The translations under genes were made by a program, and so were the position numbers. This document shows positions 9,285-16,379 of a DNA stretch of 64,000 nt, one piece after another. The DNA comes from Streptomyces sp. NBC_00236 (GTDB lineage Bacteria > Actinomycetota > Actinomycetes > Streptomycetales > Streptomycetaceae): positions 62,001 to 126,000 of the forward strand of contig NZ_CP108100.1 in NCBI RefSeq assembly GCF_036195045.1. Reading direction: 5' to 3'. Under the pieces are notes generated by a model that saw only the letters and a program-made list of their open reading frames with translations, was not told the DNA's origin and ran no database searches. Each line of letters opens with the position of its first letter. The first letter of the stretch is position 1.

Positions 9285-9836
9285 TCAGCGCCGTCCGCCG
9301 AACTCCCAGGCATGCACTTCGATCCCGGCGTACCGGTCCGGCGTGAGGACGGCGCGTGCCGCGTCCGGATCCGGCGCCCTTACCAGTGCCGCCGTGCCCA
9401 GCCAGGTCGTACCGTCGTCGGAGAGCAGCGGCCCGTAAGCGATCAGGTCGTCCCGGCCGGCCGGCACCGCGAGGTCGGCGGGATCCCCCGCGCCGAGGCC
9501 GATCACGAGGTACCGGTTGCCGCCGCTGTGTCCACCGGGGAAGTCCCACATGGTGCGCCCCAGCAGGTTGCGCCACCTCCTCAGCAGCACGTCGCGGTAA
9601 GCGCCCGCCTGGTAGTTCGGCTCGTCGAAGGCGAACGCGCGGGCGGCGGCGGGGCCGGGCAGGTCGACGATGTGCACGCTTCCGGTGGGCACCTCGTCGT
9701 TGTCGTGCGCGAAGGTCGGGCCCCTGGCGATCAGCTCCTTCGCATATTGGTCCATGTAGGACCAGTGTTCTTCCAGCAGCTCTTCCCGCAGCGGAAGGGA
9801 GCCGGGCCGGTCGCGGTGGTAGCAGAGGAACTCCAT
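9285..9836 (-). CDS. YciI-like protein with two domains
   Basis: This 183-residue protein looks like two YciI-type ferredoxin-like domains in tandem. The first half (residues 1 to about 95, MEFLCYHRDRPGSLPLREELLEEHW) contains the usual REELLEEHW helix and a GSVHIVDL strand. The second half repeats the layout (DLIAYGPLLSDDGTTWLGTAALV). YciI proteins are small dimeric proteins of uncertain function, some with hydrolytic or dioxygenase-like activity. The ribosome site is weak. The gene lies 85 bases from the divergent-looking end of the M20 gene but is transcribed in the same direction, so it may be the distal gene of that unit. Confidence 0.75.
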   Translation of the reverse strand: MEFLCYHRDRPGSLPLREELLEEHWSYMDQYAKELIARGPTFAHDNDEVPTGSVHIVDLPGPAAARAFAFDEPNYQAGAYRDVLLRRWRNLLGRTMWDFPGGHSGGNRYLVIGLGAGDPADLAVPAGRDDLIAYGPLLSDDGTTWLGTAALVRAPDPDAARAVLTPDRYAGIEVHAWEFGGRR

Positions 9837-9921: not shown

Positions 9922-11175
9922 TCACACTGTGTCGAGCCAGGTCAACGCCGCGACCACCAGCGCTTCCACGCCGGTGCTCAGCGTCGGCTCGACGACCGGT
10001 GCGAAGGCCGACGAGTGGTTGCTCGGCAGCTCGTCCATGCGTCCCTCCTTGAACGCCGCGATCGCCGATTCCGCCTCCAGCCCGCCCCAGAACCAGAACA
10101 CCGTGGGCACGCCGAGTGCCTCACCGAACACACCCACGTCCTCGCTCGCGTTCACCTGCGGCATCGGCAGCAGCCGCTGGGCGCCGAAGTGCTCGGAGAA
10201 CGCCGCCACCGTCGTCTTCGTGGCCTCGGAATCGCTGACGAGCGCGGGGGCGGCGGCGAACCAGGCGAGGTCCGGCGGCTTCGGCGCGCCGCTCGTCCGT
10301 GACTCCCCCGTCACGATGCGCTCCACCGCGCTGCGGACCAGGTCGCGTACGGCAGGCGTGAAAGCGCGGATGTTGACGCCCAGTTCGGCGGTTTCCGGGA
10401 TGATGTTGTCCTTCGTACCGGCCTTCAGGCGCCCCACCGTCACCACGGCCGTCTCCGCCGGCGGTACCTCACGGGCGACGATGCCCTGGAGCCGAGTGAC
10501 CACGTTGGCCGCCATGAGCACCGGATCGATGGACGCTTCCGGCCTGGATCCGTGGCCGCCCCGGCCGTGGAGGGTGATGTTCACCGAGTCGGCGGCCGCC
10601 ATCACCGGCCCGCTGCCGTGACCGATGAATCCGGCGGGCAGCGGTCCGACGTGCTGGCCCAGGACGATGTCCGGCTTGGGAAAGCGTTCGAAGAGGCCGT
10701 CGTCGACCATGCCCCGGGCGCCGACCGCCAGTTCCTCGGCCGGCTGGAACACCACCAGCAGTGTGCCGCTCCACTGCTCGCGGGCCCGCGCGAGAAGGTC
10801 TGCGGCACCCGTCAGGCAGACGGCGTGCATGTCGTGACCGCAGGCGTGCATCACGGGCACGTCATGGCCGTCGCCGTCGACGGCGCGGACCGTGCTGGCG
10901 TACGGCAGTCCTGTGTTCTCCTCCACCGGCAGCGCGTCGAAGTCCGCGCGCAGCATCACCACGGGGCCGTCCCCGTTACGCAGGACGCCGACCACGCCGG
11001 TGACGCCGACCTGCTCGACGACCTCGTCGAAGCCCCCCTTGCGCAGGCGCTGCGCCAGCAACGCGGCAGTCCGGGTCTCCTGCAGCGAGAGCTCCGGGTG
11101 GCTGTGCAGGTCCCGGTAGAAGTCGGCAAGGTCCTCGCGTATGTGCTGCAGGCCCTCGGTCACCGTACTGGCCAT
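9922..11175 (-). CDS. M20D amidohydrolase (hippurate hydrolase type)
   Basis: This 417-residue metallopeptidase resembles hippurate and N-acyl amino acid hydrolases. Metal-ligand motifs are visible: HACGHDMH in the middle of the N-terminal catalytic domain, FQPAEE with the catalytic glutamate, and a C-terminal histidine in the SNHSSAF segment. GHGSRPEASIDPV marks the dimerisation lid. It has no signal peptide and probably acts on acylated amino acids in the cytoplasm. ATG 11175 is preceded by GGAGGAGG. The downstream YciI-like gene reads in the same direction after 85 bases. Confidence 0.9.
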   Translation of the reverse strand: MASTVTEGLQHIREDLADFYRDLHSHPELSLQETRTAALLAQRLRKGGFDEVVEQVGVTGVVGVLRNGDGPVVMLRADFDALPVEENTGLPYASTVRAVDGDGHDVPVMHACGHDMHAVCLTGAADLLARAREQWSGTLLVVFQPAEELAVGARGMVDDGLFERFPKPDIVLGQHVGPLPAGFIGHGSGPVMAAADSVNITLHGRGGHGSRPEASIDPVLMAANVVTRLQGIVAREVPPAETAVVTVGRLKAGTKDNIIPETAELGVNIRAFTPAVRDLVRSAVERIVTGESRTSGAPKPPDLAWFAAAPALVSDSEATKTTVAAFSEHFGAQRLLPMPQVNASEDVGVFGEALGVPTVFWFWGGLEAESAIAAFKEGRMDELPSNHSSAFAPVVEPTLSTGVEALVVAALTWLDTV

Positions 11176-11288: not shown

Positions 11289-12968
11289 TCACGGCGCCTC
11301 AGCGGGATCGGGCACCCGCCGGGCGTACGCCAGTGCCTGGACCTCGGCGTAGGACGGGGCGGCCGGATCCGTCGGCCGCCCGTCCCGGATGCCGGTCGCC
11401 GCGCCGACGGCCGCCGCCAGTGCCCTGCGGTAGAGCAGCGAGCCGAGGCTGACCCTGCGCACGCCCAGCGAGGCCAGTTCGGCAAGCGTGGGCCCGGCCG
11501 GGTTGTACAGGATGTTCAACGGGACGACGAGCGCCGAGGTCAGCTCGGCGATCGCGGCCGGATCCGAGAGCCCGGGCACGAACACCCCGTCGGCACCGGA
11601 CTGTTCGTAGAGGGCCAGGCGCATCTCGGTCTCGTCCTCGTGGCGGGACGCCCAGTGGGTGTCGGTACGTGCGTTGACGAACAGCGCGGGTGCCACCTCT
11701 TTGACCGCGGCGATCTTCGCCGCGTGCAGCTCCATCGGCGCGAGTGTGCCGTCGGGTCGGCCGTCCTCCAGGTTGATGCCGGCCGCGCCCGCCTCGTACA
11801 GGGCCCGTGCCAGTGCGGCCACTTCCGCCACGTCGTCGCTGAACCCGCCTTCGGCATCGACGGTGAACAGGAATCGGCCCGTTCCGAGGCGACGGGCCAG
11901 ACTCACGGTCGCCTCGGCCGTGGCGGCTGCCCCGTCCGGCAGACCGGCCGCGGCGGCGACACCCAGGCTGGTGGTGCCGACCGCGGCGAAGCCCTGTTCG
12001 GCCAGCGCGGCGGCGGAGGCGCAGTCCCAGGCGTTGGGCAGCAGCAGTGGGTGCGCCCCGTGGTGCAGCCGGGCGAACGGAGTGAGCGGGCGCCGGAGCA
12101 GTCCGTCGGCCAGCGCGAGGGCGTGGGCCCTGCCCGGGCAGATGCGGGGCGGGGCGCCGAAGGTGAGAGGCACCGGGTGCGCGCGGTTGGCGGCCGCCAG
12201 GTCGAGGAGCACCACGTCGCCCTCGGCGATCGCGCGGCCTGCGACCCGGGTGGCTCCGGCGGCGACGCGACGCATGTTCCGTACGGGAGGCAGGTCCCGC
12301 AGGACCCGGGACAGCGGAAGCCGTTCGTTGCCGGCTGCGGTTTCGACGAGCGCGGCCGTCGCCTCGCATGCCTGGACGAGCAGACCGATGCGACCGGCTG
12401 CGGACTCCAGGGCGGCGTCGTCCGAAGGACGCACCGGTTCGGTGGCGGCCTCGGATCCGGCCGACGGAGTGCCAGGTCCGCCCTGTGTGGACACAGGCTC
12501 GTCCGACGGACAACCAGGTCCGTCCTGTGTGGAGCCAGGGCCGTCCTGTGTGGGAGCGGCCGGCCACCTCACCAGCCTCGCCACCGCCTCGTCGGCAGCT
12601 GCGTCCTCCCCGCCGAAGTACACCCCGGCCACCGCGATCACTGCCTGCGCCACGGCTGCGGGCTGCGCCATCCCCAGGGCCCCGGCGAGCGTACGCACCA
12701 CCGTGACCCGGGTGTCTTCGCCGGGCACCACGGCTGCGGCCTCGCGCAGCGACTCCGGAGCGAGACGGGCCACCTCGGCCTCGACCAGGGCGCGCCGCCG
12801 CCGGTGTGGCTCTCCGTGGCTGAACCGGGCCACAGTGGCGCGCAGCCAGGCAACGCTCGCCCCGGGCGGGCCGTCTGCCGCGGCCGGCCGTTCCGGGACG
12901 AGCGCCGGATCGGCGAGGGCCGACCGTACGTCCTCGAAGCGGTCGAAGTGGTGCGTCGTGTACGTCAT
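11289..12968 (-). CDS. Fusion: degenerate cytochrome P450 + PEP mutase/isocitrate lyase-like domain
   Basis: One uninterrupted 559-residue frame joins two families. Residues 1 to about 295 read as a cytochrome P450: C-helix HGEPHRRRR (51-59), I-helix-like QACEATAALVE (199-209), and heme-ligand loop FGAPPRICPG with Cys277. The K-helix E-x-x-R reads RVLR (221-224), so its Glu is missing, and the meander with its D-P-x-x-F-x-P segment is absent between NRAHPV and LTFG. A TQDGPG-repeat insert occupies about 138-180. Residues about 300-559 are a PEP mutase/2-methylisocitrate lyase-like barrel: LLPNAWDCASA, FTVDAEGGF, GINLEDG, FVNARTDT. ATG 12968 faces the ArsR gene across an operator. The P450 half is probably not a working monooxygenase; the barrel half looks intact. 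Confidence 0.85.
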   Translation of the reverse strand: MTYTTHHFDRFEDVRSALADPALVPERPAAADGPPGASVAWLRATVARFSHGEPHRRRRALVEAEVARLAPESLREAAAVVPGEDTRVTVVRTLAGALGMAQPAAVAQAVIAVAGVYFGGEDAAADEAVARLVRWPAAPTQDGPGSTQDGPGCPSDEPVSTQGGPGTPSAGSEAATEPVRPSDDAALESAAGRIGLLVQACEATAALVETAAGNERLPLSRVLRDLPPVRNMRRVAAGATRVAGRAIAEGDVVLLDLAAANRAHPVPLTFGAPPRICPGRAHALALADGLLRRPLTPFARLHHGAHPLLLPNAWDCASAAALAEQGFAAVGTTSLGVAAAAGLPDGAAATAEATVSLARRLGTGRFLFTVDAEGGFSDDVAEVAALARALYEAGAAGINLEDGRPDGTLAPMELHAAKIAAVKEVAPALFVNARTDTHWASRHEDETEMRLALYEQSGADGVFVPGLSDPAAIAELTSALVVPLNILYNPAGPTLAELASLGVRRVSLGSLLYRRALAAAVGAATGIRDGRPTDPAAPSYAEVQALAYARRVPDPAEAP

Positions 12969-12988: not shown

Positions 12989-13014
12989 GACGGTTCGGCG
13001 CGGCCCGAACCGTC
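12989..13014. promoter_or_regulatory. Perfect dyad between P450 fusion and arsR, likely ArsR operator
   Basis: GACGGTTCGG and CCGAACCGTC form a perfect 10-base inverted repeat with a six-base spacer. It occupies the centre of the 65-base divergent intergenic region, 20 bases from each start. Position and symmetry fit the operator of the adjacent ArsR-type protein, which would then control both genes. This is inference from position. Confidence 0.7.
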
Positions 13015-13033: not shown

Positions 13034-13714
13034 ATGTCCTCCATCGCCGAGACCGCGTCCCTGCTCGCCGACCGCACCCGGGCCACCTTCTGCCAGTCCC
13101 TGCTCGACGGCCGGGCCTGGACCGCGGGCGAGCTCGCACGGAGCGCCGGGGTCAGCGCGTCCACGGCCAGCGAGCAGTTGTCCCGACTGATCGACGGCGG
13201 CCTGCTGGCCGAGGAGCGGCAGGGCCGGCACCGCTATGTGCGGCTGGCGGGCCCGGAGGCCGCCGCCCTGATCGAGGCCGTCGCCTCATACGCCCCCGAC
13301 GCTTCCGCCCGCCCGCGGAACCTGCGCCAGTCCGGCCGGGCGGGTGCCGAGGCGCGAGCCCGGACGTGCTATGACCATCTGGCCGGTGAGCTGGGTGTGG
13401 CGCTGGCCGATGCCATGATCTCCCGGGGCCTGGTCTCCGAGGACGCCGGTCTCTCCGTCACCCCGGCGGGCCGGGAGTGGCTGGCGGACGCCCTGGGTTA
13501 CCGGCACCCCACGGGTGCGCGCCGGCCCTTGGTGCGGAGCTGCCTGGACTGGACGGAGCGCCGGTCGCATCTGGCCGGAGCGGTGGGAGCGGCCCTGTGC
13601 GCCACGTCGCTGGAGCGGCAGTGGGTGCGGCGGATCGGCTCCGGGCGGGCGGTGAAGGTGACGCCGGTGGGGGCCGAGTCGTTCCGGGAACTGCTGGGTG
13701 CGGAGGTCGGCTGA
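13034..13714 (+). CDS. ArsR-type winged-helix regulator with C-terminal extension
   Basis: This 226-residue protein starts with an ArsR/HTH_20-like DNA-binding domain (residues about 5-85: TASLLADRTRATFCQSLLDG, then AGVSASTASEQLSRLIDGGLL). The classic ArsR metal-binding Cys-Val-Cys is not seen. The remaining 130 residues, with YDHLAGELGVALADAMISRG and CLDWTERRSHLAGAVGAALC, form an extension known in Streptomyces regulators that probably binds a small molecule. It diverges from the P450-PEP mutase fusion and is likely its repressor. A start at ATG 13034 gives almost no leader before the operator. Confidence 0.85.
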   Translation: MSSIAETASLLADRTRATFCQSLLDGRAWTAGELARSAGVSASTASEQLSRLIDGGLLAEERQGRHRYVRLAGPEAAALIEAVASYAPDASARPRNLRQSGRAGAEARARTCYDHLAGELGVALADAMISRGLVSEDAGLSVTPAGREWLADALGYRHPTGARRPLVRSCLDWTERRSHLAGAVGAALCATSLERQWVRRIGSGRAVKVTPVGAESFRELLGAEVG

Positions 13715-14342: not shown

Positions 14343-16379
14343 TCAGCCGGGGGCGGGCGGGGCAGGCCGTGCGAGGTGACTCCACAAGAAGGTGTGCATG
14401 AGGGCGTTGTTGTGGGCGGCCTGCTCGTTGTCGCCCGCGCCCGCGTGGCCGCCGCCGGTGTTCTCGTGAAGCAGGACCCGGTGACCGAGTTCGCGCAGCC
14501 GTGCGGCGGCCTTGCGGGCGTGGCCGGGGTGGACCCGGTCGTCACGGGTGGAGGTCGTCAGGAGCAGGGGCGGATAGGACCGGTCCGCGGCGAGCCGGTG
14601 GTACGGGGACAGCGCGCTCAGGTGCACGCGATCGGCCCGGTCGTCCGGGTCACCGTACTCGGCGATCCAGGACGCACCGGCCAGGAGTTCGTGGAAGCGG
14701 AGCATGTCCAGCAGGGGGACCTGGGCGACGACGGCGCCGAACAGTTCCGGGTACCGGGTGACCATCGCGCCCATGAGCAGTCCGCCGTTGCTGCCGCCCG
14801 CCGCGCCCAGCATGGCCGGGGTGGTGATGCCTCGTCGGACGAGGTCGGCGGCGACGGCCGCGAAGTCCTCGAAGGCCCGTACCCGGTCCGCGCCGAGTGC
14901 CGCCCGGTGCCAGCCGGGGCCGTACTCGCCGCCGCCCCGGATGTTCGCGATCACATAGGTGCCCCCGCGCTCCAGCCAGGCCCGGCCCGTCACCGCGCCG
15001 TAGAAGGGGGTGAGCGAGACCTCGAAGCCGCCGTAGCCGTAGAGGAGGGCGGGGCCGGGGCCCGCGGAGGCGTCGCGGGGGCCGATCACGAAGTACGGCA
15101 CCTTCGTGCAGTCCTGCGAGAGGGCGAAGAACTGCTCCACTCCGAGCCCGGCCGCGTCGAAGCGGGCCGGGGCCTGCTTGATGATCTCCGTTTGGCCCCC
15201 GACCCGCCCGTGGTAGAGCGTGGAAGGCTGCAGGAACCCCGACACGTCGAGGAAGAACTCGTCGGAGACGTCCGGGTCCGTGTCCACGACGCTGACGGCG
15301 GACAGCGCCGGGACGTCCGCGAGCGGCTCGCGCGCCCACCCGGCGCCGGGGGTGGGGGTGAGTACCTCGATGCGGGTGCTGACGTCGTGCATCGTCTCCA
15401 GGATCAGATGGTGACGGGTCCACGCGTGCCCGGCCAGGGCGGTCCGGGCGTCCGGTGTGAACAGCACCTCCGGGGTCCGGTCGCCCGCCAGGAAGGAATC
15501 GAAGCCGAAGGCCAGCATGGAACCCGCGCGGTGTCCGAGCCAGTCGGACTTCAGGCTGACGATCAGGTGCTCGCGATGGGCGTACGCGTCGGCGTCGTCC
15601 GGGACATCGATCCTGATGAGCGAGGCCTCCGGGGTGAGGAGATACATCTCGCTGTGGTGGAAGTCCATCGACCGGACGACGAAGTCCCGTTCGAACCCTG
15701 GCGTGGAGTCGTGCCAGCCGCCGGCCGCCACGTCCCGCGCCTCGCCCTCGAAGACCGGCTCGGCATCCTCCAGGGGCGTACCGCGGCGCCATCGGCGAAC
15801 CGTCCTCGGATAGCCGGATTCGGTGAGGGAGCCCGGCCCGAAGTCCGTGCCGACGAACACGGTGTCGGCGTCGATCCATCCGATCCGGGTCTTCGCCTCC
15901 GCCACCTGGAACCCGTCCTCGACGAAGGTCCGGGTGCCGAGGTCGAACTCGCGGACCACCACGGCGTCTCCGCCGTCACGCGAGAGGCTGACCAGGGCGC
16001 GGCCGCAGTCGGGGTGGCGTACCCGTGCGCCGGCCCATATCCACTTCGTTCCCTCCGTGGCGGCGAGCGCGTCGACGTCGAGGAGCATCTCCCACCGGGG
16101 AGCGTCCGTCCGGTACTGCTCCGGCGTCGTGCGCCGCCACACACCCCGCGCATGCCCGGCGTCACGCCAGAAGTTGTAGAGGAACTCGCCGTGGCGCGCG
16201 ACATACGGAATCCGGTCCGGGGCGTCCAGCACCTCCAGCAGGCGCTCCTTCAGCGAGGCGAACGCCGCGCCGGATGCCAGAGCGGCGTCCGTCTCGGCGT
16301 TGCGCTCCGCCACCCAGGCGAGCGCGGCCTCGCCCTCGATGTCTTCCAGCCACAGGTACGGGTCATCGTTGATCACCAC
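14343..16379 (-). CDS. Prolyl oligopeptidase family S9 peptidase
   Basis: This 678-residue cytoplasmic serine peptidase has an N-terminal beta-propeller (residues 1 to about 400, beginning DDPYLWLEDIEGEAALAWV) and a C-terminal alpha/beta hydrolase domain. The nucleophile is in GGSNGGLL, the acid in TRDDRVHPGHA and the histidine in GGGHAG. Family members cleave after proline in short peptides. Length matches S9A enzymes. The start GTG 16379 opens the conserved N-terminus; GAGG lies about 12 bases upstream, so the ribosome site is weak. Confidence 0.9.
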   Translation of the reverse strand: MVINDDPYLWLEDIEGEAALAWVAERNAETDAALASGAAFASLKERLLEVLDAPDRIPYVARHGEFLYNFWRDAGHARGVWRRTTPEQYRTDAPRWEMLLDVDALAATEGTKWIWAGARVRHPDCGRALVSLSRDGGDAVVVREFDLGTRTFVEDGFQVAEAKTRIGWIDADTVFVGTDFGPGSLTESGYPRTVRRWRRGTPLEDAEPVFEGEARDVAAGGWHDSTPGFERDFVVRSMDFHHSEMYLLTPEASLIRIDVPDDADAYAHREHLIVSLKSDWLGHRAGSMLAFGFDSFLAGDRTPEVLFTPDARTALAGHAWTRHHLILETMHDVSTRIEVLTPTPGAGWAREPLADVPALSAVSVVDTDPDVSDEFFLDVSGFLQPSTLYHGRVGGQTEIIKQAPARFDAAGLGVEQFFALSQDCTKVPYFVIGPRDASAGPGPALLYGYGGFEVSLTPFYGAVTGRAWLERGGTYVIANIRGGGEYGPGWHRAALGADRVRAFEDFAAVAADLVRRGITTPAMLGAAGGSNGGLLMGAMVTRYPELFGAVVAQVPLLDMLRFHELLAGASWIAEYGDPDDRADRVHLSALSPYHRLAADRSYPPLLLTTSTRDDRVHPGHARKAAARLRELGHRVLLHENTGGGHAGAGDNEQAAHNNALMHTFLWSHLARPAPPAPG

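Follow-up and report, generated by a model that had tools for sequence, protein, structure and literature searches.

A reduced cytochrome P450 domain with a conserved heme site, fused to or paired with a PEP mutase-type barrel

EryCII and DesVIII, both homologous to P450s, serve a glycosyltransferase as stabilisers and activators, EryCII both stabilising EryCIII and activating it allosterically, according to the available excerpt of PMC3391682. Two further precedents come from sources likewise available as excerpts: the CYP157 proteins of Streptomyces are P450s without an intact ExxR motif (PMC3599690), and CYP5619 of oomycetes carries a P450 and another catalytic domain in one chain (PMC5919972). 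P450-derived partner proteins are already known, and what appears to be new in the protein described here is its reduced size, its kept heme site and its fusion to a lyase barrel. Searches of the open-access literature for a P450-PEP mutase pair, P450 fusions and truncated or small P450s showed no description of such a protein among the results listed. To our knowledge, no P450-derived partner protein of this reduced size, with the heme site kept, has been known to be joined to a lyase barrel.

The window, a 64,000-nucleotide stretch of Streptomyces sp. NBC_00236, contains a single 559-residue frame on its minus strand (11289..12968), with an ATG start at 12968 and a stop ending at 11289. This frame had been reported by a first-pass annotation, which gave no strand. 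The start is supported by homologues that begin at the same point and by a palindrome that sits just 5' of the ATG. The reduced P450 domain occupies residues 1-294 (12087..12968, minus strand), and an isocitrate lyase/PEP mutase-type barrel occupies residues 298-527 (11388..12077, minus strand). The repetitive TQDGPG insert that had been described is a low-complexity linker of tandem repeats at about residues 137-180 (12429..12560, minus strand). It is disordered in the structure model, its length differs between relatives and it is almost missing in some; a functional role for it was ruled out, as it is a variable, fast-changing repeat linker.

Searched alone, the N-terminal part had no Pfam match and did not reach the gathering score of PF00067. 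A profile built from 21 of its relatives recovered solved P450s (CYP164A2, E 1.2e-10), and the relatives P0140, P0141, P0152 and P0207 pass the PF00067 gathering score themselves. The domain belongs to the P450 superfamily by its fold, as seen in the model of a relative, and by its heme-loop Cys. Fold searches with the window-protein model returned barrels only, which has no bearing against a P450 fold of the N-terminal domain. The Pfam search bore out the lyase/PEP mutase-like assignment of the C-terminal part, with PF13714 (PEP_mutase) matched at E 5.6e-66 and 223 bits against a gathering score of 31.5 bits.

The P450-barrel fusion is genuine and is explained neither by chance nor by a sequencing error. 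Sorted by motif rules, 129 of 205 listed homologues (window protein included; P0001, a wrong-strand translation, left out) have the same fusion, 45 have a DinB-like tail and 31 are others, counts that cover only the listed proteins, taken from the best 120 of 495 and the best 120 of 347 matches. Their hosts are Streptomyces, Planomonospora, Actinomadura, Nocardiopsis, Stackebrandtia and others. We also collected loci from named genomes (the best 80 of 240 found) and searched 4 kb on the strand of the reduced P450 gene for a barrel gene; the pair is fused in 43, encoded by separate genes in 27 and without a detected barrel gene in 10. A search for both families in one chain had been proposed with the original reading; the fusion is not an isolated case. 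Two genes merged by a sequencing error, a doubt raised at the same time, or a decaying pseudogene would account for a P450 part that appears short with an abnormal K-helix motif, but the same joined frame recurs in independent genomes at the frequencies given above and the residues of the heme site and the barrel are conserved, which leaves this explanation with next to no probability. In L030, counted among the 43 fused loci, the barrel is split across two frames further downstream. The visible names of the listed fused proteins refer to the barrel or read 'hypothetical protein', and none refers to a P450; among these matches, current annotation overlooks the P450 half.

In all 27 separate-gene loci the barrel gene lies downstream of the P450 gene on the same strand. 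The two genes overlap by 4 bp in 24 of the 27, a count favoured by the method, since the start codon nearest the stop was taken and any NTGA (A, G or T) contains one; ATGA in 22 of these 24 is the stronger sign. L048, L051 and L073 have no such overlap. Micromonospora, Dactylosporangium and Sphaerisporangium have a plain reduced P450 gene and then a barrel gene, and in the Kitasatospora group the P450 carries a DinB-like tail and its gene is followed by a separate barrel gene (L040, L041, L044-L046, L048, L051 and L071, the barrel gene following in all except L041, where the contig ends). The DinB likeness is weak (E 0.046, below the cut-off, in the relative P0140). A VOC-family gene lies upstream in this group (KbpA model, 192.5 bits against a cut-off of 250 in L040), together with an ORF that we take to resemble a terpene synthase. 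Across the 80 loci, the DinB-like tail occurs in 12 and the VOC-family gene in 10. No barrel gene was found within 4 kb on the same strand in L050, L052, L056, L057 and L058 (Catenulispora group), where the reduced P450 has its heme residues and its gene is preceded by the same palindrome, nor in L032 and L075, which have the reduced P450 domain; L041 and L067, also without a detected barrel gene, stop at a contig end. One P450 frame of Streptomyces oryzae (L063:3-1628) has no family likeness past the I-helix and is probably broken or misread.

The domain alignment comprises 79 rows (L083-L085, L067 and L069 left out) with pairwise identities from 37.8% to 93.3%. Eighteen columns are invariant: P25, L42, R48, F49, H55, R58, R59, D126, L132, A191, L197, Q199, T204, L207, R234, F270, C277 and P278. 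The C-helix segment H55-R56-R57-R58-R59 (12792..12806, minus strand), with H55, R58 and R59 each in 79/79 domains, is presumably the heme-propionate region of P450s. The heme-ligand Cys277 (codon at 12138..12140, minus strand) is retained, as had been claimed, and is Cys in 129/129 listed fused proteins, 45/45 DinB-type proteins, 29/30 ungapped other proteins and 78/78 ungapped locus rows. By alignment, we take H55, R58/R59, R234 and C277 to be the P450 positions that hold heme. Of the phrase 'degraded P450 motifs' in the first-pass annotation, the motif changes stand and 'degraded' misleads, the heme-holding residues being invariant in the 79 aligned domains.

Because the heme site has been kept up, pure decay and a heme-free scaffold are both strongly disfavoured. 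A scaffold like EryCII or DesVIII would solely fold or stabilise the barrel; EryCII, in the excerpt cited above, has a P450 fold, carries no heme and stabilises its partner, and both the reduction of the fold and its fusion to a partner would fit such a role. The same excerpt, however, describes EryCII as lacking the Cys and the C helices, whereas Cys277 and the C-helix His and Arg residues are invariant in the aligned rows here and would be needless for a scaffold, so that we consider this explanation unlikely.

The two motif changes described earlier are present in the window protein. The K-helix reads R221-V-L-R224 in place of E-x-x-R (12297..12308, minus strand), and the meander is missing, because ordinary P450s have about 15 more residues between LAAANR and the heme loop. 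The meander is kept in the relatives P0140, P0141, P0152 and P0207. Arg221 occurs in 126/129 listed fused proteins, 34/43 fused locus rows and 34/37 rows of the window clade, and the Glu of the motif is kept in 4/43 fused rows (L036, L037, L039 and L061) and in 15/27 separate-gene relatives. These rows show that Arg221 is not universal among the fused proteins; given its frequency in the window clade and the Glu elsewhere, it appears to characterise a clade and not to reflect random decay. Of the Micromonospora-type relatives (best 120 of 538), all 120 listed matched ExxR, 118 matched the Gln pattern of the I-helix and 116 matched the heme-loop pattern (118 with a looser pattern).

Two I-helix residues unmentioned in the first-pass annotation, Gln199 and Ala203, are the stronger sign against ordinary monooxygenase chemistry. 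In the segment Q199-A-C-E-A203-T204 (12357..12374, minus strand), Q199 is found in 79/79 and A203 in 77/79 domains. In the aligned letters, Q199 coincides with the Ala of AGxET, the position of BM3 Ala264 and P450eryF Ala241. A203 lies at the position of the oxygen-activating Thr and is Ala in 127/128 listed fused proteins; the window protein, with Ala203 replacing this Thr, lacks the acid-alcohol pair of the I-helix. Residue 202 is Ala in 18/43 fused rows and an acid in most of the 27 separate rows (D in 22, E in 2). For comparison, we used 15 ordinary P450 frames, drawn from 23 matches in this genome, that pass the heme-loop pattern, two of the frames being from one gene. They have Ala or Gly at the Q199 place in 15/15 and the ExxR Glu in 15/15, and 14/15 carry Thr or Ser where A203 stands. 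The remaining frame, L094, has Ala, and for this reason the Ala203 change alone is weak evidence; P450eryF, an active hydroxylase, is also taken by us to have Ala at the catalytic Thr position. In P450 BM3, the variants A264Q and A264C displaced the sixth water without ligating the iron, and A264K and A264H were inactive (2025, excerpt of PMC11900375). Because BM3 A264Q displaced the sixth water, Gln199 should crowd the oxygen site; direct ligation of the heme iron by Gln199 is not claimed, as the BM3 variant displaced the water without it.

These residues also bear on the possibility that the reduced P450 has remained catalytic. It would then be a heme-thiolate peroxygenase, isomerase or dehydratase that does without the usual oxygen relay, shares a pathway with the barrel lyase and passes its product to it or receives one from it. 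The heme site is strictly constrained, and the invariant Q199 and T204 with a common acid at 202 suggest an active pocket; some chemistry could survive in members of the family because the 202 acid is often kept and Thr204 is invariant. The fusion and the gene overlap equally fit consecutive pathway steps, of which the DinB-like tail and the VOC-family gene could be further enzymes. On the other hand, when the modelled secondary structure is compared with the secondary-structure plan of P450s, the parts that shape the substrate pocket and the redox-partner face appear absent, 18/43 fused rows have Ala at residue 202, and no ferredoxin- or ferredoxin-reductase-like cluster was seen by eye among 22 neighbourhood clusters. 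We regard such a cryptic enzyme as a tentative alternative that ranks close behind a heme-keeping partner of the barrel. The 22 clusters viewed include aldo/keto reductase-like (6 loci) and luciferase-like (4 loci) proteins.

The Gln and Ala of the I-helix are shared by full-length P450s of the same genus (L134-L140, 7/7; about 400 residues, I-helix SQTYDAT), and no PEP mutase-type gene was found in the fetched stretches around them. An intermediate state seems to be represented by Micromonospora members with about 340 residues. These two observations suggest that a Gln-type P450 lineage, possibly the one seen in L134-L140 and ancestral to the reduced family, shrank stepwise after pairing with the barrel. 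The distribution of the reduced-P450 family is patchy. In a search of the genus, 20 of 150 genomes (own genome included) match at E 1e-15, seven of them through L134-L140, and in a phylum sample 3 of 396 match (own genome included), one of these, L085, resembling an ordinary P450. On a quick tree of the 79 domains, with many open forks and the root not inferred, the fused and separate states require 3 changes, and shuffled labels require many more. The fused proteins fall on three branches, the large window clade, L061 (Kitasatospora sp. Root107) and L068 (Herbihabitans). Gain and loss are indistinguishable from the tree alone; repeated fusion is the simpler reading because separate pairs fall on both sides of the drawn root.

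The barrel appears competent from its conserved residues, which we assign to a metal and 2-oxoacid site. D371-A-E373 (11850..11858, minus strand), presumably the metal site, has D371 and E373 in 44/44 fused and 27/27 separate barrels. Both motifs named in the first-pass annotation were located, EDG at residues 401-403 and NARTD at residues 432-436 (11661..11675, minus strand). E401 is identical in 44/44 fused and 27/27 separate barrels, and R434 is found in 129/129 listed fused proteins, 43/44 fused barrels (one gap) and 27/27 separate barrels. The barrel did not reach the NCBIfam equivalog cut-offs for methylisocitrate lyase PrpB (51.9 against 354.4 bits), PEP mutase (20.7 against 319.55 bits) or CPEP phosphonomutase (21.5 against 420.05 bits). 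The genome has a second, unfused PEP mutase-type barrel (L002, G000:C1:5219183-5219893) with 44% identity to the fused one and with one in-frame TGA counted within the matched stretch.

Upstream of the fusion gene, an inverted repeat whose perfectly matching 10-bp arms stand 6 bp apart, GACGGTTCGG-N6-CCGAACCGTC (12989..13014), lies between divergent genes and is a probable operator. Its core, TTCGG-N6-CCGAA, is exact in 69/79 upstream regions (L083-L085 and loci with <160 bp upstream left out) and in 34/3950 random control windows, which come from the same loci and may themselves contain the palindrome. By class, the core is present in 37/43 fused loci, 23/27 separate loci and 9/9 loci without a barrel gene; genome-wide, its pattern has 13 sites against 4 for the reversed control. 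The divergent gene (13034..13714, plus strand) encodes an ArsR-type winged-helix regulator (HTH_20, E 2.4e-9), and an ArsR-type homologue lies within 6 kb in 45/80 loci, divergently in 40. This regulator would be the protein that binds the palindrome. Other neighbours in the window, by Pfam, are a beta-lactamase-family protein (PF00144, 7958-9313), a YCII-domain protein (9285-9836), an M20 peptidase (9922-11175) and a prolyl oligopeptidase (14343-16379), all on the minus strand.

We favour a heme-keeping P450-derived partner that ties the activity of the barrel to heme, redox state or a ligand, with a rough probability of 45%. The heme- or ligand-responsive module serving the barrel that had been proposed at first is still the best reading of the sequence. 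The protein has two parts: the P450-derived domain comprises about 250 residues and the insert, and a lyase/mutase-type barrel enzyme follows it. From the models, the P450 part seems to have lost the meander, the C-terminal sheet and helices A, H, J and J'. Its oxygen-activating Thr is Ala, and it has retained Cys277, His55, Arg58/59 and Arg234, the residues for holding heme. Heme would be bound through Cys277, with Gln199 crowding the sixth-ligand site. Ordinary monooxygenation is disfavoured because fold parts, the meander and the oxygen relay are lost and Gln199 is present, and the domain probably performs none. A partner role is favoured by the lasting pairing with one kind of barrel, which the P450 part may stabilise and whose activity it may tie to heme, redox state or a small ligand. 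It would act like the activators EryCII and DesVIII, but with the heme site retained. The divergent ArsR-type regulator probably governs synthesis by way of the conserved palindrome. Counting against the partner role, the domain is kept in the five Catenulispora-group loci, L032 and L075, where no barrel gene was found within 4 kb. A bolder form of the partner reading, possible though we would not bet on it, is a family of natural half-size P450s that kept the heme-thiolate site and an unvarying Gln on its distal side, abandoned oxygenation and now form an integral heme, gas or redox switch for a C-C or C-P lyase, fused and translationally coupled forms arising repeatedly under one ArsR-type operator.

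Compared with the bacterial P450s P450BioI, CYP119, P450eryF and CYP109, many reduced members have about 215-300 residues without the insert, and the shortest P450 chain among 60 solved-structure matches listed has 343. The models suggest that, unlike those four, the reduced family lacks the C-terminal sheets and helices A, H, J and J'. It has Gln instead of Ala/Gly in the I-helix, and the window clade is in addition without the meander and the ExxR Glu. The isocitrate lyase/PEP mutase entries 4mg4, 4lsb and 2ze3 (DFA0005) are chains of 261-294 residues, the barrel alone, with titles that leave the reaction putative or unnamed. CYP157 keeps the Glu and loses the Arg (ExxW), whereas here the Glu is lost, the Arg kept and the chain reduced and fused. 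In CYP5619 the partner is a peroxidase/dioxygenase (excerpt of PMC5919972), and here it is a lyase barrel.

EryCII and DesVIII (NCBIfam TIGR04515) share with this family a reduced P450 fold recruited as an enzyme partner. TIGR04515 is the top model for P0207, L137, L134 and L066, and its cut-off of 343 bits was not reached by the window domain (16.1), P0207 (84.4) or L066 (114.7, the best seen). Special kinship with the glycosyltransferase activators was rejected; three ordinary P450s of the genome score 111.8, 164.4 and 124.9 bits, and because ordinary P450s score as high or higher, the TIGR04515 score is a mere P450 signal. The differences from EryCII and DesVIII, as far as the excerpt of PMC3391682 describes them, concern three points. 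The two are without the heme Cys, which is invariant in the aligned rows here; EryCII lost the C helices and kept the J helix and C-terminal sheets, and the reduced family did the reverse; and their partner is a glycosyltransferase, here a PF13714 barrel. The family would reveal how small a P450 can be without losing its heme-thiolate site. A compact heme-thiolate scaffold becomes available with it, as does a system in which control of a barrel enzyme by a P450 relic can be tested. The family would show a P450 turned partner domain with its heme retained, the opposite route to that of EryCII and DesVIII.
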